From the IMG/VR virus record IMGVR_UViG_3300027467_000574, positions 1-40,781 of that record: a DNA stretch of 40,781 nucleotides, one strand, 5' to 3'. Shown here piece by piece: positions 18,122 through 40,235 of the stretch. The translations under genes and the position numbers were made by a program. Each line of letters starts with the position of its first letter. Within the stretch, counting starts at the first letter, position 1. The stretch comes from a virus. The notes below the pieces were generated by a model. The model saw only the letters and a list, made by a program, of their open reading frames with translations, was not told the DNA's origin and ran no database searches.

Positions 18122-19380
18122 TGGCTGATTTCCCGTCTCCGACAAGTGCATATGGCCGCTGGGGAGTCAATGATGTCCGTGACGCAGTCATGGGCACAAA
18201 CTGGCCGCAATTCCCAGGAAAGCCTACCATTGGAACAGCAACGGCTGGATCAGCTTCTGCCTCCGTGGCTTTTACTGCACCTGCGAGCAGCGGGAGTTCT
18301 GCTATTACTTCTTATACAGTTACTTCTTCTCCTGGAGGAATAACTGCAACAGGAGCGAGCTCGCCAATAACTGTATCCGGGTTGACAGCAGGAACACCTT
18401 ACACATTCACTGTCAAAGCTACGAATGCTCAAGGCACCGGACCAGAAAGCAACGCAAGCAACTCCGTCACCCCGACTGCTGTTTCTTGGACAAGAATCCT
18501 CAACACTGGCGGCGACAGCGCAACGAGCGGGACAGTTAGCGTTTCCGGCTATTCTAAAGTTGCCATTTTCGGCGTCGCGCCGGGTGGCACCGGAGGCGGG
18601 GGCGGAAACGACGACGGTGGCGGTGGCGGCGGTGGCGGCGCTGTTCAGTTGAATGGCTACGAAGTTTCAATACCGGGCGGCGTGACAACTTTGTACTATT
18701 CGATACCAAATCCTGCTGGTTCTTCGACAACCAACAATCCGGGCCTTTACCAACCGAATCTAGAAGTTCGTTCGACCAATTCCGGCGGGACACTGCTGTT
18801 CTCGCTTAATGGCGGTCAAAATGGACCTTGCCACCCCTCGAACCTTACAACTGTTTCTCCGGGCGGATCTGGCGGAGCTCAGGGGACTTATGGATCTGCT
18901 GCCGGTGGAAATGGCGGTTCGGGAAATATAAGGTATCCGGACGGAAGCGGGGGAACGACAGGCACTGCAGGTTCAAACAGCACCGTTTCAACCGCTGGTG
19001 GTGGTGGCGGTGGCGCTTGGGTTTCAGGCAGTGCTTACGGGAACACAGCGGGCGAAAATGGTGGAAACAGCACCGTCAGCACTACGCTTTCCACATTTAA
19101 TGGCGGAAATCTTAGTCCTGCTTTCTCTGCCAATGGTGTGTCCGGGGGCACAGGTGGCAACGGATACTCTTCAACGACTGCTGGGGCTAGTGTCGGGAAT
19201 GCCAATGGTGGCTCAAATTCGACCTATTCAGGCGGTGGTGGCGCAGGCGGTGGCATAAGGTTCTTTGGCACTGGAAGCTACTACGGTGGTGGCGGTGGCG
19301 GCGGTGGCTCTCAGAATGGCGCGGGTGCTGGCGGTGGCAAGGGCGGCGCTGCTTACATCGTCATTTACGCTTCTTCTTAA
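18121..19380 (+). CDS. Glycine-rich adhesin-like protein 2 with fibronectin type III domain
   Basis: Layout of the 419 residues: an N-terminal attachment segment (1-32, MADFPSPT...GRWGVNDV...GTNWP), a fibronectin type III domain (about 33-119, ending NASNSVTP), then a glycine-rich region (about 160-419) ending in the strand GGAAYIVIYASS. The N-segment and FN3 are shared closely with the genes at 19391 and 20899. FN3 domains serve as spacers or weak carbohydrate binders in phage tail proteins; the Gly-rich part probably packs as polyglycine II helices with receptor-binding loops. No chaperone or enzymatic motif is seen. The start overlaps the preceding stop; ribosome-site complementarity is weak, so coupling is likely. 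Confidence 0.75.
   Translation: MADFPSPTSAYGRWGVNDVRDAVMGTNWPQFPGKPTIGTATAGSASASVAFTAPASSGSSAITSYTVTSSPGGITATGASSPITVSGLTAGTPYTFTVKATNAQGTGPESNASNSVTPTAVSWTRILNTGGDSATSGTVSVSGYSKVAIFGVAPGGTGGGGGNDDGGGGGGGGAVQLNGYEVSIPGGVTTLYYSIPNPAGSSTTNNPGLYQPNLEVRSTNSGGTLLFSLNGGQNGPCHPSNLTTVSPGGSGGAQGTYGSAAGGNGGSGNIRYPDGSGGTTGTAGSNSTVSTAGGGGGGAWVSGSAYGNTAGENGGNSTVSTTLSTFNGGNLSPAFSANGVSGGTGGNGYSSTTAGASVGNANGGSNSTYSGGGGAGGGIRFFGTGSYYGGGGGGGGSQNGAGAGGGKGGAAYIVIYASS
18217..18477 (+). repeat. FN3 module copy 1
   Basis: First of three homologous fibronectin type III coding segments of about 261 bases. The core YTVTSSPGGIT is identical in protein between copies; wobble positions differ, so the duplication is not very recent. 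Confidence 0.8.
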
Positions 19381-19390
19381 AGGAAATTAA

Positions 19391-20533
19391 ATGGCGCAGT
19401 TCCCGACACAAGCAGGTCCAAACTCTGATGTATGGAATCAGCAAGATGTATATCGTGCTGTCGCCGGATCTAATTGGCCTGCAAGACCGAGTGCTCCGAC
19501 AATAGGAACTGCAACCGGCGGAAATGCACAAGCGACCGTAACATTCACTGCCCCAGCAAGCACCGGCGGGACAGCGATAACTTCTTACACCGTTACTTCT
19601 TCGCCCGGAGGAATAACCGCTTCAGGAGCATCCTCGCCTATCACTGTGACAGGACTGACAAACGGAACAGCTTACACTTTCACAGTAGCAGCAACCAACA
19701 CTCAAGGAACTGGCCCTTCCAGTGCTGCGAGCAATAGCGTTACGCCGAGCGCATACACTGGCCCAACTTCGGTCGAATACCTCGTTGTCGCAGGCGGTGG
19801 CGGTGGCGGCGCGACCCGAGCCGGTGGCGGCGGAGCCGGTGGTTTCCGGACCGCAACTGGGTTGGCTGTTGTCGGAAGTACTGTTTATACAGTGACGGTC
19901 GGTGGCGGCGGAAATGCAGGCATTTACAGCCCAGCATCTGCTTCATCAAATGGATCAAATTCTGTTTTCAGCACGATAACCTCCATAGGCGGCGGTCGAG
20001 GGGCTTCTCGCCAAGGTAGCGTCGCGGCAGCGGTCGGCGGATCCGGAGGTGGCGGTGGCTGTGACAATGCCTCCGGTGCTGCTGGGACATCAGGTCAAGG
20101 CAATGCCGGTGGCAGTAACACTGGCGAATCTGCGGGCGGCGGTGGTGGCGGCGCATCTGCTGCAGGTGCAAACTCTACTTCTGGAAGAGCCGGTGGTGCA
20201 GGAACAGCTTCCAGCATTTCTGGAAGCAGCGTGACATACGCTGGCGGCGGTGGCGGTGGCGAAGGTTTGAGTGGAGGTGGAGGCGGACCGGGCGGCGCAG
20301 GCGGCGGTGGAGCAGGCGGTGATCCGGGCGGAAATGGAACAGCAAATACTGGCGGCGGTGGCGGCGGCGGCAACGACGACCGCAGCGGCGGAAATGGCGG
20401 CTCTGGTGTTGTAATTATTCGTTACCCAGACACATTCTCTGCTGCAGTTTCCACGACAGGCTCGCCAAGTTACACCGTTTCCGGCGGCTACCGCATCTAC
20501 AGATGGACCGGCTCTGGTTCTATTACTTTCTGA
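19391..20533 (+). CDS. Glycine-rich adhesin-like protein 3 with fibronectin type III domain
   Basis: A 380-residue paralogue of the preceding gene: attachment segment (1-33, MAQFPTQAG...VAGSNWP), FN3 domain (34-120), a beta strand TSVEYLVVAGGGGGG, then a Gly-rich body (up to about 345), then GVVIIRYPDTF and a closing strand GGYRIYRWTGSGSITF. The VVIIRYP...W.GSGSI ending is typical of glycine-rich phage tail proteins. The FN3 is almost identical to those of the neighbours over TSYTVTSSPGGITASGASSP. AAAGGAAA precedes the ATG. Probable receptor-binding tail protein; the host ligand is unknown. Confidence 0.75.
   Translation: MAQFPTQAGPNSDVWNQQDVYRAVAGSNWPARPSAPTIGTATGGNAQATVTFTAPASTGGTAITSYTVTSSPGGITASGASSPITVTGLTNGTAYTFTVAATNTQGTGPSSAASNSVTPSAYTGPTSVEYLVVAGGGGGGATRAGGGGAGGFRTATGLAVVGSTVYTVTVGGGGNAGIYSPASASSNGSNSVFSTITSIGGGRGASRQGSVAAAVGGSGGGGGCDNASGAAGTSGQGNAGGSNTGESAGGGGGGASAAGANSTSGRAGGAGTASSISGSSVTYAGGGGGGEGLSGGGGGPGGAGGGGAGGDPGGNGTANTGGGGGGGNDDRSGGNGGSGVVIIRYPDTFSAAVSTTGSPSYTVSGGYRIYRWTGSGSITF
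19490..19750 (+). repeat. FN3 module copy 2
   Basis: Second copy, aligned without gaps across most of its length with the copy at 20995 (shared GASSPITVTGLTNGTAYTFT). Confidence 0.8.
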
Positions 20534-20542
20534 GGAAAGACA

Positions 20543-20896
20543 ATGGCGCATTTTGCACAGCTAGATGAAAACAACTTTGTCCTTCAGGTGATCGTCGTCC
20601 ACGACAATGAGTTGAAGGACGAGAATGGCATTGAATCAGAAGAAAAAGGAATAGCTTTCTGCCAGTCTCTGTTTCCAGGGACAATGTGGAAGCAAACGAG
20701 CTATAATTCTAAAATAAGGAAAAATTACGCGGGCATCGGACACTACTACGATGCAGAAAGAGATGCGTTCATTTCTCCCAAACCTTACCCGTCTTGGATT
20801 CTTAATGAAGAGTTCTGTCGTTGGGATCCTCCTGTCCCCAAACCAAACGATGGACAATTTTATCAGTGGGATGAAGAAACTCTTTCTTGGAGATAA
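20543..20896 (+). CDS. Conserved-type fibre-associated protein
   Basis: A 117-residue protein: MAHFAQLDENNFVLQVIVVH, then GIAFCQSLFPGTMWKQTSYN, then RKNYAGIGHYYDAERDAFIS and PKPYPSWILNEEFCRWDPP, ending WDEETLSWR. I recognise this as a conserved small phage protein found beside tail-fibre genes in cyanophages and other aquatic phages; its biochemical role is not established to my knowledge. It lies between two glycine-rich adhesin genes. A TGAGGAAA site precedes the ATG and the stop overlaps an ATG of the next gene. Confidence 0.7.
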   Translation: MAHFAQLDENNFVLQVIVVHDNELKDENGIESEEKGIAFCQSLFPGTMWKQTSYNSKIRKNYAGIGHYYDAERDAFISPKPYPSWILNEEFCRWDPPVPKPNDGQFYQWDEETLSWR

Positions 20897-20898
20897 TG

Positions 20899-22155
20899 AT
20901 GGCACAGTTTCCTTCGCCCACGAATGCAAATGGAATATGGACGCTTAAAAAAGTTAAGCGCAATGTCCAAGGAAGCAACTGGCCAATTTTCCCCGGCGCT
21001 CCGACCATTGGAGTTGCGACTGCTGCCAGCACACAAGCGACTGTTACATTCACAGCGCCAACTTATACTGGCAGCTCTGCGATTACTTCTTACACCGTCA
21101 CATCTTCTCCTGGAGGAATAACCGCTTCTGGAGCTTCTTCTCCTATTACAGTTACAGGCTTAACAAACGGAACAGCTTACACGTTTACTGTTAGAGCTAC
21201 GAACTCTGCTGGCACCGGTCCTTCCAGTGCTGCCAGCAACAGCGTCACGCCGAGTGCACCGACGAGAGCTTTCACGATTTCGCCCGCAGTCTCTGGCAAA
21301 ACAACTTGGGATCTTGACACTGATGGCCCGCTTGCCTTGTCTTCTTACGGAGATTGGACGATCGTCCCGCTAACCAATTTCTCTGCTTCTGTCAAAATAT
21401 GGGGCGCTGGCGGTGGACGAGGTGCGACCAATGCATTTTCGACTGCCAATGCATTCGGCGGTGGCGGCGGTTACGCAGGCGGAACTTTTTCTGCGACTTC
21501 CGGAACGACTTTCGTTTTGAGAGTCGGCCAAGGCGGTTTGTTCACGACAACTTCAATTTTTGAAAGCGGAACGGCGTTTGGCGGCGGCGGTTCTGGAACG
21601 AACTACTCCGACCGCCAATGGAACTGCGGCGGCGGCGGTGGTTTGTCCGGCATATTCGTTAACAGCGTCACTCAGGCTAACTCCGTTTTGATCGCTGGCG
21701 GCGGCGGTGGTGGTGGCAACAGCCGTTTTGGAGGCGACGAAAATGGTGGTGCAGGCGGCGGCACGAACGGCGTTGCTGGAGGCGGTAACGGCGGCGGCGG
21801 TGGCGGGGGAACTCAAACTGCAGGCGGCGCAGGTTCCGGAGATGCAGCAATCGGTTCTTCTGTAAACGGGAGTGCACTGCAAGGCGGATCGCTTACTCCG
21901 ACCTCAACAATGGGCGGCGGTGGCGGCGGCGGATATTTCGGCGGCGGCTCCGGCATTTACCAGAGCGACGACCAAGTGTCGGGCGGTGGCGGTGGTTCTG
22001 GAAGAGTTAATGCGACTTACATCTCCAGTGGCACGCTAACTGCAGGCAGCGGAACGACCCCCGGCAACAGCGGAGACGCCAATCGTTCCGGAGCCGGGAC
22101 AGGCTCTTCCACTGCTGCGACTGCAGGGTCCAACGGAAGGATTTACATCTCTTGA
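20899..22155 (+). CDS. Glycine-rich adhesin-like protein 4 with fibronectin type III domain
   Basis: I chose the second of two adjacent ATGs (20899) because GGAG lies 6 nt upstream and the product then starts MAQFPSPT like its paralogues; the ATG at 20896 would overlap the previous stop. The 418 residues comprise an attachment segment (1-32, ending GSNWPIFPG), FN3 (33-119), a beta domain with TWDLDTDGPLALSSYGDWTI, and a Gly-rich region (about 165-400) closing with GSNGRIYIS. Its FN3 is closest to the one at 19490. Probable receptor-binding tail protein. The region after FN3 differs from its siblings, so it may recognise a different receptor. Confidence 0.75.
   Translation: MAQFPSPTNANGIWTLKKVKRNVQGSNWPIFPGAPTIGVATAASTQATVTFTAPTYTGSSAITSYTVTSSPGGITASGASSPITVTGLTNGTAYTFTVRATNSAGTGPSSAASNSVTPSAPTRAFTISPAVSGKTTWDLDTDGPLALSSYGDWTIVPLTNFSASVKIWGAGGGRGATNAFSTANAFGGGGGYAGGTFSATSGTTFVLRVGQGGLFTTTSIFESGTAFGGGGSGTNYSDRQWNCGGGGGLSGIFVNSVTQANSVLIAGGGGGGGNSRFGGDENGGAGGGTNGVAGGGNGGGGGGGTQTAGGAGSGDAAIGSSVNGSALQGGSLTPTSTMGGGGGGGYFGGGSGIYQSDDQVSGGGGGSGRVNATYISSGTLTAGSGTTPGNSGDANRSGAGTGSSTAATAGSNGRIYIS
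20995..21255 (+). repeat. FN3 module copy 3
   Basis: Third copy. All three sit at the same place in their proteins (about residues 33-120), between the attachment segment and the glycine-rich part. Confidence 0.8.
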
Positions 22156-34482: not shown

Positions 34483-34504
34483 GAGCCCAGCGATTGCTGG
34501 GCTC
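34483..34504 (-). terminator. Convergent intrinsic terminator
   Basis: A 9-bp perfect stem GAGCCCAGC/GCTGGGCTC with a 4-base loop lies between the two convergent units. On the minus strand it is followed by TTTTTATTT, a good U-run, so it ends the regulatory unit just after the GcrA-like gene. On the plus strand the hairpin lies 3 bases after the last virion gene but has no U-run, so it would act weakly there. Confidence 0.8.
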
Positions 34505-34508
34505 AACT

Positions 34509-34985
34509 CTATGCCCGGAACTTGAAGGGAGAAACTTTGCGTTTCTTCTCTTCTTTGTCGGGCTTTTTCTGATAGCACATGTTTGCATGGAACTCGCAGT
34601 ACGATCCTTTTTGGATCGGCTGGCAGCAGAATGCAGTTTCTGTTCCGCAAACTTCGCCGAGAATAAATCTGCAGGATTCTGAATTTAGTTCCATGATTGT
34701 GTTCTTTGTGTCCCTTTTTGGCTGCGGGGGAATTGTTACGGATCTTTTTCGAACAAGCTGTCCGTTTATTGCGACGAGCTTGAAATGCTTTTCAGGCTGT
34801 TTCTTTTTCTGCTCTTTGCGAGCAGCTTTAACGACTCCCGGATTGCGAAGAAGTTTGCTGCGATTGACGTAACCCATAACAGAGCTACGAGTTACGCCAA
34901 TTTCTGCAGCAATTTGCCCGGAAGTGAAATGCTCTGCCCACATTTTCTTTATGAGCTGCTTTTTCTCTTCGGTCAGACTTCTCAT
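34509..34985 (-). CDS. gcrA: GcrA-family cell-cycle regulator homologue
   Basis: A 158-residue protein with the two ends of GcrA: an N-terminal DNA-binding helix-turn-helix (LTEEKKQLIKKMWAEHFTSG, QIAAEIGVTRSSVMGYVNR, about 4-42) and a C-terminal Cys/His cluster (Cys105, 113, 120, 121, 130, His133, Cys137: CRFILGEVCGTETAF, GSYCEFHANMCYQ). GcrA is an alphaproteobacterial transcription factor that binds sigma-70 RNA polymerase and GANTC sites methylated by CcrM, activating S-phase genes. The pattern CGxxxxFCxxP...YC..H...Y of the tail region is recognisable, with an extra Cys. The middle is longer and more basic than in host proteins. It is the last gene of the minus-strand unit, two bases after its neighbour's stop. 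A phage copy could redirect host transcription. The family call is by pattern. Confidence 0.8.
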   Translation of the reverse strand: MRSLTEEKKQLIKKMWAEHFTSGQIAAEIGVTRSSVMGYVNRSKLLRNPGVVKAARKEQKKKQPEKHFKLVAINGQLVRKRSVTIPPQPKRDTKNTIMELNSESCRFILGEVCGTETAFCCQPIQKGSYCEFHANMCYQKKPDKEEKKRKVSPFKFRA

Positions 34986-34986
34986 T

Positions 34987-35310
34987 TTACTTCTCTTCGA
35001 GCTGGTCGACCATCGAGGACATAATAGCCTTGCGCTCTTCGTCCGTCAGCTTGCGCCCAGAAACGATCGCAGGGACCGGCTCGTCGGTTCCATCAGGATC
35101 ATAGCCTTCCGCATAGCCATCGCGAATTTTCGATGCGAGAGCAGAGAGCAAAACCTGAGATTGCGACCGCAGATGATCGAGCTGCTTCTGCTGCTCTTCC
35201 ATGCATGCCGACAGTTCCATAGACAGTTGAGCAAGATCCCGCAAAAGGAGACGCTCGGCCCGAGCCTGTTCCTGAGCGAGTTTGCCGATGATGTAATCTA
35301 TATTTTGCAT
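34987..35310 (-). CDS. 107-residue coiled-coil protein, unknown function
   Basis: I chose the ATG at 35310, which has AAAGGAC upstream and leaves only one base after the neighbour's stop; an in-frame extension upstream would overlap that gene by about 90 bases. The product is helical, with a heptad-like central stretch (RAERLLLRDLAQLSMELSAC, EEQQKQLDHLRSQSQVLLSA), then DGYAEGYDPDGTDEPVPAIV and a C-terminal helix. It is soluble, and no domain is recognised. Tight spacing to both neighbours shows it is part of the regulatory unit. Confidence 0.65.
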   Translation of the reverse strand: MQNIDYIIGKLAQEQARAERLLLRDLAQLSMELSACMEEQQKQLDHLRSQSQVLLSALASKIRDGYAEGYDPDGTDEPVPAIVSGRKLTDEERKAIMSSMVDQLEEK

Positions 35311-35311
35311 C

Positions 35312-35677
35312 TTATGTCCTTTCTTCTGCCAGTTGTTTGTCAAACATATCGAATCCGATACGCCTAACAACATATTCGTTGCGCTTTGTTGAGAACCGTG
35401 CAACGAAGAACGAGTCGTGCTTCTCAGAGAGATAAGCAGCCATCATCGCAAAGATGATAGCGTCACCGTAGAATGCGATCGCATCTGCGGTGCTGTCAAA
35501 ACTCTCGAGCTGCTCGACAATCTTTGATTCGAACCTGTCTGCAAAACGCTCATCGACCATGTCGTCGAACATTGGCGTCTCGCAAACATAAACGATCTCG
35601 TCTGCTATTTCTAGCAATGACGAGGGGCTAAATCGAAAGTTGACGTGCGGGACGTAAACTTTCCTGAATCTTCGCAT
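35312..35677 (-). CDS. Unknown protein of the minus-strand regulatory unit
   Basis: I chose the ATG at 35677 (121 residues) because GGAG lies 6 nt upstream. A TTG at 35767 (151 residues) would overlap the upstream gene by 26 bases and has no good ribosome site. The product starts MRRFRKVYVPHVNFRFSPSS and contains FDDMVDERFADRFESKIVEQ and a hydrophobic helix AIAFYGDAIIFAMMAAYL. No motif identifies it. The stop lies one base before the next gene's ATG. Confidence 0.6.
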   Translation of the reverse strand: MRRFRKVYVPHVNFRFSPSSLLEIADEIVYVCETPMFDDMVDERFADRFESKIVEQLESFDSTADAIAFYGDAIIFAMMAAYLSEKHDSFFVARFSTKRNEYVVRRIGFDMFDKQLAEERT

Positions 35678-35741
35678 CTTTTTCTCCATCTGCATCTGGC
35701 TTGGATTTTCTTCCAAAACAGGCATGCTGAAAAGCTGATTT

Positions 35742-35996
35742 TTATATTTTAAGTATTCTTTCGTCAATGAAGAACACAGCCTTGTTTCCGCGACCGACGT
35801 TGGTGACCCTATTCAGGATGGTGCCTTTGTCGCTGAGTTTTATCCGCAGCCTGCGCACCGAGCACATCAAAGAGTTGTGGTAGCTGCGCGTCTCAGGTCC
35901 AACGAACTGGCTTTTCACAGTTTGGAAATCTACCGTCTTGCCCGCATGCATCTTGAAGAACTCGAGCAATTGTTTTTCTCTTGGTGTTAGTTTCAT
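35742..35996 (-). CDS. Small winged-helix DNA-binding protein
   Basis: An 84-residue protein that is nearly all one winged-helix domain of the OmpR/PhoB output type: LTPREKQLLEFFKMHAG, then RSYHNSLMCSVRRLRIKLSD (recognition-helix region), then NRVTNVGRGNKAVFFI (wing). There is no receiver domain, so any activity would not depend on a response-regulator phosphorylation site in the same chain. It overlaps the helicase gene by ATGA and lies downstream of it, so the two are probably made together. It probably regulates phage or host promoters; its targets are unknown. Confidence 0.75.
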   Translation of the reverse strand: MKLTPREKQLLEFFKMHAGKTVDFQTVKSQFVGPETRSYHNSLMCSVRRLRIKLSDKGTILNRVTNVGRGNKAVFFIDERILKI

Positions 35997-37717
35997 AGCT
36001 CATCTTCCTCAAGAGCGAACAGCTTGCGGTAGTCATCGAGCGTCATGTCAGAGACGCTCTTTTTGTCACGCAGATTTGCGAGGATCTTTTTGTCAGGCGA
36101 TTTCTGTGCGACGAGATCGAAATAGGTGACAGTTCCTTTTGTCCCGTCACGCCATGTTCGGCCCTCGCTCTGCCAGCGGGCGAGAGCATTGAAGCTGTTT
36201 GAATAGTAAATATTCGTGTTGCACAAACCCTGAAGATTAAGACCTGTGCCTGCAGCTTCTGGCGACGCCACGAGGAAACGTATGCCAGATTCCTTGTCCA
36301 TGAACAACTCGAGATTCTTCTTGCGCTGACTTTCTGGCGTCCTGCCGTAATAGTCGACCGCCTCTTGGCCGAGCTCTTTCATCACAGACTCAATGTCTTG
36401 GTTAAACCTGCACCAAACAATGATTTTGCCTGTGCGTTGCTCGATGATCGATTTGAGCTCTTCCATTCTGGGATTTGGGAACTTGATTATTTTGTTGTCG
36501 TCTGTCGGCAGGAACCCGCAACTGATCTGCTGCATGCGAGTCAAAAGTGTCGCAGCGGTAGTTACGGAAGATATCTCGCCTTTGCCAACCTCTGCGAAGA
36601 ATTGCTGTCGCAGCTCTTTCATCACCTTCAGCTGTGCGTCGGAAAGAGCAAACTCTCTCCGCACATAGACTTTCGGTGGCAGGTCTAGAGCTTCCTCGCT
36701 GGTGATTCGGAAAATGCAAGGGTCAATCTTTTTGTACAACTCCTCGATGTTCTTTGAGCCAGCGATGATCTTTCCGAATGGGGTGTCCCGCATAACGCAG
36801 AATTGATTCCTGAAGGCAGTTATGTAACGGAACCCGAGGATCCGCTCGTCCAGGAATTTGAACTGGCTGAAAAGGTCGATCACGTTCTTGGCAATTGGGG
36901 TGCCAGTCATGATCATCCTGTAGCGACACAAAGACCCGAATTTGATGGCAGCCTTGGTGCGGCTCGCGGACATGTTCTTGATGTCTTGCGACTCGTCTAT
37001 GATCATCGTTGCGCGACCTTTGGCCTGTTTCAAGAACGCCAAGATCTTGCTTTCGCCACCTGGAGTCACTATCGCATCGATGTTGATGGCCATTATCTTC
37101 AGGCCATCAAATGCCATCATCTCTTCAAAATCTCGCTCGGCTCTTTTGGTCTTTCCATAGACCCAAGCAGTCCAGCGCACTGATTCGCTCATGTGTTCTG
37201 GGATCTGCTCAGCCACCCATTGGCGGTGAACGCCATTTTTGGCCACGAGCAGCACATGATCAGATTGACCCCTGCACCAGCGCTGACCCATGAATGCAAT
37301 TGCGGTCCAACTCTTGCCTGTCCCGACATCCATGAACAGGCCGAAAGAGTCCAGATTCTGCAGTTTCTCAAGAGCCTGTTTTTGGTGGTCGCGGGGCGAT
37401 GTTTTGAATTGGAATGTAGGGCGGCTATCCCCTATGTCGAAAAGTCCATCAGCGACCATTCCTGCGGCTGCATCAGGGTCTTCCTCCTCGACCAAACAGT
37501 CGGGGAAAACGGATCGCCAGACTTCGAGATTATAAGGCGAGTTATCGAACGAGAACGACCTATTGGCGCCCCATCGTTTCATTCCCTCAAGCCTGTTCAG
37601 AGCTCTGAGAATCCGAGCATCGTATTCGGAGGTCGTTCTGACCCTTTTTCCTTCAATCTTGACGTTCATTTTTGCCCCCGCAGCATTTTCCATTTCCAGT
37701 CCATGGACCGATTTCAC
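35993..37717 (-). CDS. SNF2-type superfamily 2 helicase/ATPase
   Basis: 574 residues from a GTG start at 37717; ATGs at 37693 and 37669 are alternatives, since none has a clear ribosome site. Motif I DVGTGKS (130-136), motif II DESQ (241-244, a DExx box with Ser-Gln as in some SNF2 proteins), motif III TGTPI (271-275), and in the second RecA-like domain ASPEAAGTGLNLQG (motif V) and RWQSEGRTWRDG (motif VI) are all present. An N-terminal segment of about 105 residues precedes the helicase core. Such proteins use ATP to translocate on duplex DNA. Phage SNF2 helicases act in replication, recombination or removal of bound proteins; which applies here is unknown. The gene heads the regulatory end of the minus-strand unit, with ATGA to the winged-helix gene. 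Confidence 0.88.
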   Translation of the reverse strand: MKSVHGLEMENAAGAKMNVKIEGKRVRTTSEYDARILRALNRLEGMKRWGANRSFSFDNSPYNLEVWRSVFPDCLVEEEDPDAAAGMVADGLFDIGDSRPTFQFKTSPRDHQKQALEKLQNLDSFGLFMDVGTGKSWTAIAFMGQRWCRGQSDHVLLVAKNGVHRQWVAEQIPEHMSESVRWTAWVYGKTKRAERDFEEMMAFDGLKIMAINIDAIVTPGGESKILAFLKQAKGRATMIIDESQDIKNMSASRTKAAIKFGSLCRYRMIMTGTPIAKNVIDLFSQFKFLDERILGFRYITAFRNQFCVMRDTPFGKIIAGSKNIEELYKKIDPCIFRITSEEALDLPPKVYVRREFALSDAQLKVMKELRQQFFAEVGKGEISSVTTAATLLTRMQQISCGFLPTDDNKIIKFPNPRMEELKSIIEQRTGKIIVWCRFNQDIESVMKELGQEAVDYYGRTPESQRKKNLELFMDKESGIRFLVASPEAAGTGLNLQGLCNTNIYYSNSFNALARWQSEGRTWRDGTKGTVTYFDLVAQKSPDKKILANLRDKKSVSDMTLDDYRKLFALEEDEL

Positions 37718-37808
37718 TTACTCTTCTTCTATTACTTTCTTTCTTCTATTTTCCTCTAGAGTGAGTGGAATTCAGGAGAGGAATGGAAATGGAAAATGGT
37801 GTTGTGGT

Positions 37809-37849: not shown

Positions 37850-38806
37850 TCAGACCATTTCCAGGAGAGAGTCACGAACCTCGACCTTCAGGCGCGAACG
37901 TTCGCCGAGCCATGCGTTGAAGAGTCGAGCGTCGCCCTTGGTCCCTGCAACGTGGTCAACCCAGTGGGTTACACCGTTGAGGATGCCCCACGCATTGCCC
38001 GGGACCGCTCCGGGAGCGTTGTTGACCGAGTTGAGAACTTGGTCGAGGTGTTTGGGGCGGTAGGTCGGGTCGTTCAGGAGCATCTCGATATGGCTCTCCT
38101 CTTTCTGCCCTTCAGGTGTCGGGGCGAAGAACTTAGAGAGGAACCGCACAGTGTCGAACTCGCTCATCTTGAGCTGATCGAGCAGCTTGGCATCGAGGTG
38201 CGCCTGATGGATCTGCTCCCGAGCGAGGCCGATGGTCTCCTTGGCGCGGGCCGCATCGAACACCGAGAGGTGGTTCTGGCTATATTGGGCCTGTCCCTGA
38301 ATAGCCATCGCCATGGTGTTGGCGCAAACCACGCGCACTGTCGTTGTGCGGACCGAGATTGCTTTGCCAACCTCGTGGGGCGAGATCAGCAGGATGTAGC
38401 CTTTGACATGGTCCTTACGGTTAATGGTGAACCCTTCGTTGATCGAGGCAAGAGCCCAGATCACCTTGCCACCCCGCAGCGAGCCAGCAGTCTCGAGCTT
38501 TGCGCCACCGATCTCGGTGTACTCCCGGAAGAACTCCATAGCGTCGCGGTTCTGCAGAGGCTTCCACAGATCGCCGGTGATGGTCATCACCTTGTTGTCG
38601 CTGGTGCGCATCAGAGCCCGACGAACCGGGAGCTTGATCATTTCGCCGTTGGGTGCCTCGGCGTAGATCGGGCGGAGCTCGACCTCCCAATCAAGACCAG
38701 CAGCGACGATCATCTCGTCGACGGTGGCTGAGGAGTCGATCCGGTTGCCCAGACCGTGCCAAGGGACTTCGTTAGCGAAAGCCATGGTTTCAACTTCGTG
38801 TGCCAT
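37850..38806 (-). CDS. DUF932 family protein (phage/plasmid-like)
   Basis: I chose the ATG at 38806, which has AAAGGAG upstream; an earlier in-frame codon would place the start inside the ribosome site and overlap the upstream gene. The 318 residues match the DUF932/TIGR03299 phage- and plasmid-type pattern: ETMAFANEVPWHGLGNRI, MIVAAGLDWEVELRPIYAE, RDAMEFFREYTEIGGAKLET, TTTVRVVCANTMAMAI. The role of DUF932 proteins is not established, though they are common on plasmids and phages. There is no membrane segment. The small gene just upstream may be its partner. Confidence 0.8.
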   Translation of the reverse strand: MAHEVETMAFANEVPWHGLGNRIDSSATVDEMIVAAGLDWEVELRPIYAEAPNGEMIKLPVRRALMRTSDNKVMTITGDLWKPLQNRDAMEFFREYTEIGGAKLETAGSLRGGKVIWALASINEGFTINRKDHVKGYILLISPHEVGKAISVRTTTVRVVCANTMAMAIQGQAQYSQNHLSVFDAARAKETIGLAREQIHQAHLDAKLLDQLKMSEFDTVRFLSKFFAPTPEGQKEESHIEMLLNDPTYRPKHLDQVLNSVNNAPGAVPGNAWGILNGVTHWVDHVAGTKGDARLFNAWLGERSRLKVEVRDSLLEMV

Positions 38807-38820
38807 TTTAGATCTCCTTT

Positions 38821-39090
38821 TCACCAAAGTCCTTCGACAGCTTTTTCGAAGGTTGATTCCTGACGGATGACGTCAGCCATATGCACGTCTTCGAGGTTGG
38901 ATTCAGCGTCCCAAACAAACCACACAATGTCGCCGAACCGAGTGTGGATCGGCGCAACTGCGTAGCGCGAGAGCTCGCCGAAGATCACCTTCTTGGCAGC
39001 GAGCTGCCCCCGCTTTGACGGGTCGTTGACGATCTCGGCCGGGAAGGCAGAGCGCGAAACAGCGAGGAGGGTGGGGCGACGAGCTTTCAT
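38821..39090 (-). CDS. 89-residue protein next to the DUF932 gene, unknown
   Basis: A small basic protein (starts MKARRPTLLAVSRSAFPAE; contains IHTRFGDIVWFVWDAES) ending 14 bases before the DUF932 gene, with GGAG about 8 nt before its ATG. The leader upstream contains promoter-like boxes and a palindrome with a GANTC site, so this may be the first gene of a transcript. No domain is recognised. Its pairing with DUF932 is worth noting in related phages. Confidence 0.65.
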   Translation of the reverse strand: MKARRPTLLAVSRSAFPAEIVNDPSKRGQLAAKKVIFGELSRYAVAPIHTRFGDIVWFVWDAESNLEDVHMADVIRQESTFEKAVEGLW

Positions 39091-39108
39091 TCTAGGATCT
39101 CCATCTAC

Positions 39109-39160
39109 CCGGCGAATCGGCCGGTAAAAGTATTAAACGCCAGAACGAGAAAAAAGAAAA
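39109..39160 (-). promoter_or_regulatory. Candidate promoter P5 with GANTC palindrome
   Basis: On the minus strand TTTTCT, 17-base spacer, TTTAAT before the gene starting at 39090. A palindrome (CCGGC, loop GAATCG, GCCGG; 39109-39124) lies right where transcription would be expected to start, and its loop holds a CcrM-type GANTC site. Confidence 0.4.
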
Positions 39161-39171
39161 CAAGAAAATTG

Positions 39172-39202
39172 AGATGGGGCCAAAATATTTTCGACCCCAT
39201 CT
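39172..39202 (-). terminator. Intrinsic terminator after the 39214-39753 gene
   Basis: An 8-bp stem (AGATGGGG with CCCCATCT) with an AT-rich inner part lies 12 bases beyond the stop on the minus strand. It is followed on that strand by a T-rich stretch (CTCAATTTTCTTGTTTTC and on), which also holds the promoter-like boxes of the next gene. Confidence 0.7.
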
Positions 39203-39815: not shown

Positions 39816-40235
39816 TCAGTCATGAATGCTCGGCACAGGTCTTTTTTGTTTTTTGCTCATTTCCGCCAGTCTTTCCTCCAATCGTTGACGATTGATCATC
39901 ATAGCTTCCTCGTCGGGCTCCCAGTCCCCGAAAAGCTCCTCCGGTATTCCCACAGCGAGACCCTGAAGCTCTGTCAGATTCGGTTTGCGTTTGCGACGCT
40001 GCAACTCTGCGACGAGCTGTGCCTGTCTTTTCAGGCAGTATCCCAGTCTCGTATAGAAGAACTTAACATGGCCGTTGCCGAGGGTGTATTGTTCAGGAGC
40101 ATCGACCCTTTTGGGATCGACGCCTTTCTCGAGAGCTTTGCGCACCAACCCGAAAACACGAGGCAGCTCGTAGTATTCTGCAGCGAGATGCTTGTCGTGC
40201 AGCTCTTGGGGCGGGATGCAGTTGATGCGAGTCAT
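39816..40235 (-). CDS. denV: Pyrimidine-dimer DNA glycosylase/AP lyase (T4 endonuclease V family)
   Basis: A 139-residue protein close in length and pattern to T4 DenV (138 residues): MTRIN at the start, HLAAEYYELPRVFGLVRKAL, TLGNGHVKFFYTRLGYCLKR. The catalytic Thr2 (its N-terminal amine attacks the sugar after Met removal) and Glu23 are present, as are Arg3, His16 and Arg26. Arg22 of T4 is Tyr here. The enzyme cuts the glycosidic bond of UV-induced pyrimidine dimers and then the backbone. The C-terminal part is less like T4. It suits a phage of sunlit water. Start overlaps the upstream gene's stop (TAATG on the minus strand). Confidence 0.88.
   Translation of the reverse strand: MTRINCIPPQELHDKHLAAEYYELPRVFGLVRKALEKGVDPKRVDAPEQYTLGNGHVKFFYTRLGYCLKRQAQLVAELQRRKRKPNLTELQGLAVGIPEELFGDWEPDEEAMMINRQRLEERLAEMSKKQKRPVPSIHD

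Follow-up and report, generated by a model that had tools for sequence, protein, structure and literature searches.

Does a phage outside the giant Caulobacter phages carry its own copy of the cell-cycle regulator GcrA, and, if so, on whose promoters would such a protein act? In the host, GcrA works with sigma-70 and with GANTC sites methylated by CcrM. The question is raised by a minus-strand open reading frame (ORF) in IMG/VR virus record IMGVR_UViG_3300027467_000574, analysed here over positions 1 to 40,781 (40,781 nucleotides, hereafter the window). The window covers only part of this virus, for which a record of 58,891 bases also exists; the 16 kb common to both are 99.98% identical. A first-pass annotation, made from the sequence alone, had described the ORF as a GcrA homologue closing a regulatory operon. 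The results presented below confirm that it is a genuine GcrA-family gene and not a chance reading frame.

Identification of the GcrA-family protein

The ORF starts with ATG at position 34985 and ends with a stop at 34509. Its product matched the Pfam family GcrA (PF07750) with E=3.7e-20 and 73.3 bits, against a curated cut-off of 26.9 bits, and residues 5-145 were aligned with positions 4-152 of the 155 in the profile. A phmmer search against PDB returned Caulobacter GcrA in the RNA polymerase complex 7ye1 (E=2.1e-10), the DNA-binding domain 5yiu and, over residues 94-145, the sigma-binding domain 5yix (E=7.5e-4). A profile built from 14 phage GcrA proteins, which takes in phiCbK but no cellular GcrA, recovered the full-length Caulobacter protein of 7ye1 at 5.9e-34, 5yix at 1.2e-16 and 5yiu at 1.5e-10. 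These matches bear out both the homology and the arrangement proposed in the first-pass annotation, namely an N-terminal helix-turn-helix (HTH) followed by a C-terminal Cys/His cluster in GcrA order; the order C105-C120-C130-H133 is invariant in the 14 phage proteins. Two finer details of that description, additional cysteine and a basic middle, were also found, the former as C113, C121 and C137 and the latter as 15 K/R versus 5 D/E in linker residues 46-104.

In the AlphaFold model, the N-terminal block is a three-helix HTH (helices 6-17, 22-29 and 33-43) with a predicted local distance difference test (pLDDT) score of 82-95, and the middle of the protein (pLDDT ~45-59) corresponds to a disordered linker. 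The best Foldseek match of the model was again GcrA of 7ye1, with a weak E=0.017. The identity of the gene is firm, and its function is presumably that of the family.

How well is the protein preserved among related phages? GcrA proteins can be as little as ~30% identical in relatives whose SNF2 and DnaE proteins still show 65% and 75% identity, respectively. The dN/dS ratio (omega) of gcrA, 0.18 and 0.25, indicates purifying selection, and the protein is therefore under selection.

Position of gcrA in the operon and in related phages

The minus-strand operon of the window reads leftward from its leader at ~39.17 kb. An 89-residue ORF comes first, followed by genes for a DUF932 protein, an SNF2 helicase, a winged helix and a Pam3_gp32-like protein, then by a 109-residue ORF and finally by gcrA (Table 1). 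The gcrA ORF begins 1 nt after the preceding stop (junction TAA-A-ATG), and the terminator at 34504-34483 marks the point at which the operon meets the convergent structural genes; both observations agree with the claim that gcrA closes the operon. The description of the operon as regulatory fits GcrA and the winged helix, which are regulators, but not the SNF2 helicase and the DUF932 protein that it also holds.

Relatives of this ~59-kb phage, which span a wide lineage, were gathered through SNF2 and DnaE searches. GcrA scored above the cut-off in 16 of 50 records, and L015 additionally has a GcrA missed by the genome scan. The gene is the final one before convergent late genes in L012, L013, L014, G008, G009 and G011; it follows a helicase in G026 and G044 and DUF932 in G023, and precedes SNF2 in L015. 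About ten relatives thus have gcrA at or near the same place, at the operon end or in the SNF2 neighbourhood. The fragment records L030, L033, L036 and L039 contain SNF2 and the kilobases downstream of it with no GcrA detected there, so the gene appears to be accessory.

Cultured phages extend this picture. The window portal protein is 59% identical to those of Caulobacter phages RW, KcrB, RLK and GB2A, and in RW (MK929790) the genes for gp60 and gp61 occupy the same slot, between the helicase and the convergent late genes. RW gp60 is an OmpR-type winged helix and gp61 (105 residues) a GcrA DNA-binding domain alone, both above the Pfam cut-off, and gp49, which has no Pfam family, matches the phage-GcrA profile in its C-terminal block (E=8.2e-8). 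In RW, GcrA is apparently split (L125 18371-18934 and 29325-29642) into a DNA-binding part, gp61, and a sigma-binding-like part, gp49. No GcrA match was obtained in Roseobacter CRP-901, Pelagibacter HTVC023P, DSL-LC04 or ctpbd312. The hosts of cultured relatives are Caulobacter, Roseobacter and Pelagibacter, and one related contig sits in an Alphaproteobacteria metagenome-assembled genome.

Table 1 Features of the gcrA operon and its flanks in the window
Feature	Position	Strand	Remarks
Terminator-like hairpin	34483..34504	-	GAGCCCAGC-AATC-GCTGGGCTC then TTTTTATTTG (hairpin + T-run), just past GcrA stop
GcrA-family gene, 158 residues	34509..34985	-	Pfam, PDB matches, profile, AlphaFold/Foldseek
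HTH DNA-binding domain of GcrA	residues 1-44		followed by basic linker, residues 45-100
Sigma-interacting-type C-terminal domain of GcrA	C105/C120/C130/H133		
109-residue ORF, no family match	34987..35316	-	directly upstream of gcrA; stop TAA 1 nt before GcrA ATG
Weak Pam3_gp32-like protein	35312..35767	-	E=2.2e-4, below cut-off
Stand-alone OmpR/CtrA-type winged helix (Trans_reg_C), 84 residues	35742..35996	-	Pfam E=5.1e-8
SNF2-family helicase	35993..37717	-	GcrA neighbour in relatives
DUF932 protein	37850..38827	-	Pfam
First ORF of operon, 89 residues, no family	38821..39090	-	downstream of leader
Repeated leader/promoter-like element	39091..39174	-	CGATTCG in hairpin, GANTC at 39114
Terminator-like hairpin	39172..39202	-	just upstream of leader

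The hairpin upstream of the leader suggests that the genes between 39.2 and 34.5 kb form an operon of their own. A divergent operon situated past the right end of the window encodes a DnaE-type polymerase and a 769-residue protein with a DUF5906 domain. The CtrA-like protein of the window is a winged helix only, with no receiver domain carrying a phospho-acceptor Asp; its counterparts are RW gp60 and L015 5798-6130, and a tblastn search with it in phage records gave no match. Neither a CtrA site of the form TTAA-N7-TTAA nor a tRNA or Rfam RNA was found in the window. The Pam3_gp32-like protein is kept with the GcrA module in relatives at 52-54% identity.

Two further features of the window were recorded. 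A gene for a pyrimidine-dimer glycosylase of the T4 endonuclease V type lies nearby at 39816-40235, and internal DNA repeats of about 140-230 bp (75-79%) occur at ~18.3, 19.5 and 21.0 kb (18298-21258) in the structural gene region.

GANTC sites and leader elements

If the protein reads methylated GANTC, are the sites and the methylase to be found in the phage itself? A CcrM-type N6_N4 methylase was found neither in the virus of the window nor in its 50 relatives (0/53 records with N6_N4_Mtase). In the window, GANTC is about as frequent as expected (observed/expected 0.93), and counting by intergenic position, as suggested in the first-pass annotation, revealed no over-representation, with 3 sites versus 5.3 expected in the window and 3 versus 3.4 in the adjoining 13.5 kb. 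Certain relatives avoid the motif, the ratio being 0.17 in G027 (L059 with L134-L136), 0.18 in G023 (L053 with L137-L138) and 0.08 in G036 (L072 with L143-L144), compared with 0.64 to 1.15 for control pentamers; G027 and G023 carry GcrA and have zero intergenic GANTC. Such avoidance is itself not new, since it has been reported for pelagiphages (PMC9516812).

The leader of the operon belongs to a 74-bp element present twice in the window phage, at 39171-39098 (minus strand) and, just outside the window, at L005 12408-12481, with 89% identity between the copies. The leader carries CCGGCCGATTCGCCGG, and in both copies a hairpin contains CGATTCG, ~23 nt beyond the GG of an element that resembles a -10. 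This sequence fits YGAKTCG, one of the two motif forms (YGAKTCG/YGAKTCK) reported for Caulobacter GcrA, whose peaks lie at -40 to +40 of the start (PMC7987155). Leaders of L025 (two copies) and L029 (four copies, the fourth found by a profile with GANTC masked) also contain GANTC, which is therefore present near the -10 in 8/8 leader copies of these three GcrA-bearing phages, the copies being related and thus not eight independent events. In six of the eight, the site lies 21-23 nt past the GG, though the hairpin arms differ. The sites are downstream of the putative -10, a position that does not match the solved activator geometry. Homologous leaders without GANTC occur in GcrA-bearing L012, L013, L026 and L032, and leaders with GANTC occur in L030, L031, L033 and L036, relatives in which GcrA was not detected. 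The position and repetition of the leader elements suggest that they are promoters.

A promoter-like element, TTTTCTTTT-N~10-GGCATAAT, is found throughout the lineage (seen in L005, L012, L013, L025, L029, L030, L032, L060 and L070), and many of its copies are closely followed by a hairpin. Where this core element is combined with a ribosome-binding-site-like sequence, GANTC is present in 5/9 matches from GcrA-bearing records and in 5/14 from records with no GcrA found, against a background of 7.6% and with matches that are not independent. A general GANTC-promoter code was considered for the whole lineage and rejected, given the lack of intergenic enrichment, the zero intergenic sites of G027 and G023 and the mismatch between leader GANTC and GcrA presence.

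A separate 118-bp element occurs in two copies, one upstream of SNF2 at window 37683-37798 (minus strand) and the other ahead of a second operon at L006 5184-5299. The two are 88% identical, the element terminates in a perfect inverted repeat of 15 bp (CATTTTCCATTTCCA/TGGAAATGGAAAATG), and related copies (71-87%) are present in L012, L013, L025 and L099. It is a candidate for a shared leader or an element resembling miniature inverted-repeat transposable elements.

Possible roles of the phage GcrA

These data lead to the key question of what the protein would do in an infected cell. The reading that we favour, with confidence slightly on the positive side of even, is that it serves as a host-directed cofactor of sigma-70. 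Phage GcrA, produced during infection from the gene that closes a replication-type operon, would attach through its C-terminal Cys/His domain to the housekeeping sigma factor of the host, at region 2. Its HTH would hold the holoenzyme at promoters, most probably those of host cell-cycle and replication genes with CcrM-methylated GANTC, so that replication functions would be switched on in a non-replicating host cell. Sigma binding, the DNA target, methylation dependence, timing and the host effect are what we infer from the family. The S-phase-like transcription suggested in the first-pass annotation is plausible as a proposed role, because both parts of the protein are kept, it is under purifying selection, its gene has a conserved place and the search for a phage CcrM gave none; for phiCbK GcrA, host reprogramming of this kind has already been proposed (Gill 2012, PMC3556154). 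Several observations weigh against it. Structure prediction, which supported the HTH at high pLDDT, gave the C-terminal fold a pLDDT of only ~45-54 (AlphaFold, eight sequences). The recognition helix reads TRSSVMGYVNR instead of the Caulobacter TRNAVIGKVHR, and the N-terminal Trp of Caulobacter GcrA is Leu; therefore, the DNA specificity may differ.

Next in rank, and in our view unlikely, is a decoy or antagonist that would compete with host GcrA for sigma or methylated GANTC and block host cell-cycle transcription. Fast divergence around a kept core, the distribution of the two parts between gp61 and gp49 in RW, and the proteins of Phaeobacter MD18 and Rhizobium RHEph12, which match the N-terminal GcrA part only, would suit such a protein, but the window protein has retained both parts in the arrangement that an activator requires, and shows no sign of antagonism. 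Somewhat less likely still, and third in rank, is an action of GcrA on the phage's own leaders (39091-39174 and L005 12408-12481), in which host CcrM methylation and the level of GcrA would tune the operon. The YGAKTCG-type sites in both window-phage leaders, one of which heads the very operon that ends in gcrA, the regular GANTC of the eight related copies and the Caulobacter motif with its peak positions point in this direction; the missing intergenic enrichment, the leaders in which GANTC and GcrA do not coincide, G027 and G023, and the placement of the sites relative to the -10 point away from it. The proposal of methylation-responsive phage promoters is thus a weak one, with some footing in the GANTC of two leaders of the window phage and six of two close relatives. 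Its boldest version seems to us improbable: the phage's own GcrA would read host CcrM marks at YGAKTCG hairpin leaders heading early operons, including the gcrA operon, and so form a feedback loop gated by methylation for which the virus supplies no methylase. We give as little credence to a middle-to-late switch, in which a sigma cofactor would steer host polymerase to phage promoters irrespective of methylation: the core element is shared across the lineage, gcrA stands at an operon end facing late genes and GANTC-avoiding relatives still keep GcrA, but the core element is also present in phages without detected GcrA and hence does not need it.

Comparison with known systems

Phage GcrA has been known from phiCbK since 2012, and what is new here is its presence in a separate phage lineage. 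It thereby extends from the giant phiCbK group to ~59-kb DnaE-encoding phages, in which it is found repeatedly in the same genomic position, in some of them together with a CtrA-like winged helix. The phiCbK protein, gp222 (PMC3556154), also belongs to PF07750 and, like the window protein, combines a DNA-binding part with a C-terminal C/C/C/H part; the two share ~25% identity, and phiCbK is a >200-kb siphophage with another gene neighbourhood. Caulobacter crescentus GcrA (7ye1/7ye2, 5yiu, 5yix) is alike in domain order, basic linker and the invariant Cys/His core, at 31% identity, whereas the window protein has Leu for the N-terminal Trp, an altered recognition helix and three extra Cys, and is encoded by a phage without detected CcrM. 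The phiLM21-like Sinorhizobium prophages (PMC12429752), likened here by annotation and not by sequence, also have a phage-borne GcrA and an alphaproteobacterial host, but are temperate. A further parallel is found in RW and its kin KcrB, RLK and GB2A, which share the portal and the winged helix plus GcrA-family gene between helicase and convergent late genes, RW differing in having its sigma-binding-like block in a separate protein. As a cultured relative, RW makes the idea of a GcrA-based seizure of the alphaproteobacterial cell cycle by phages directly testable in a model host.
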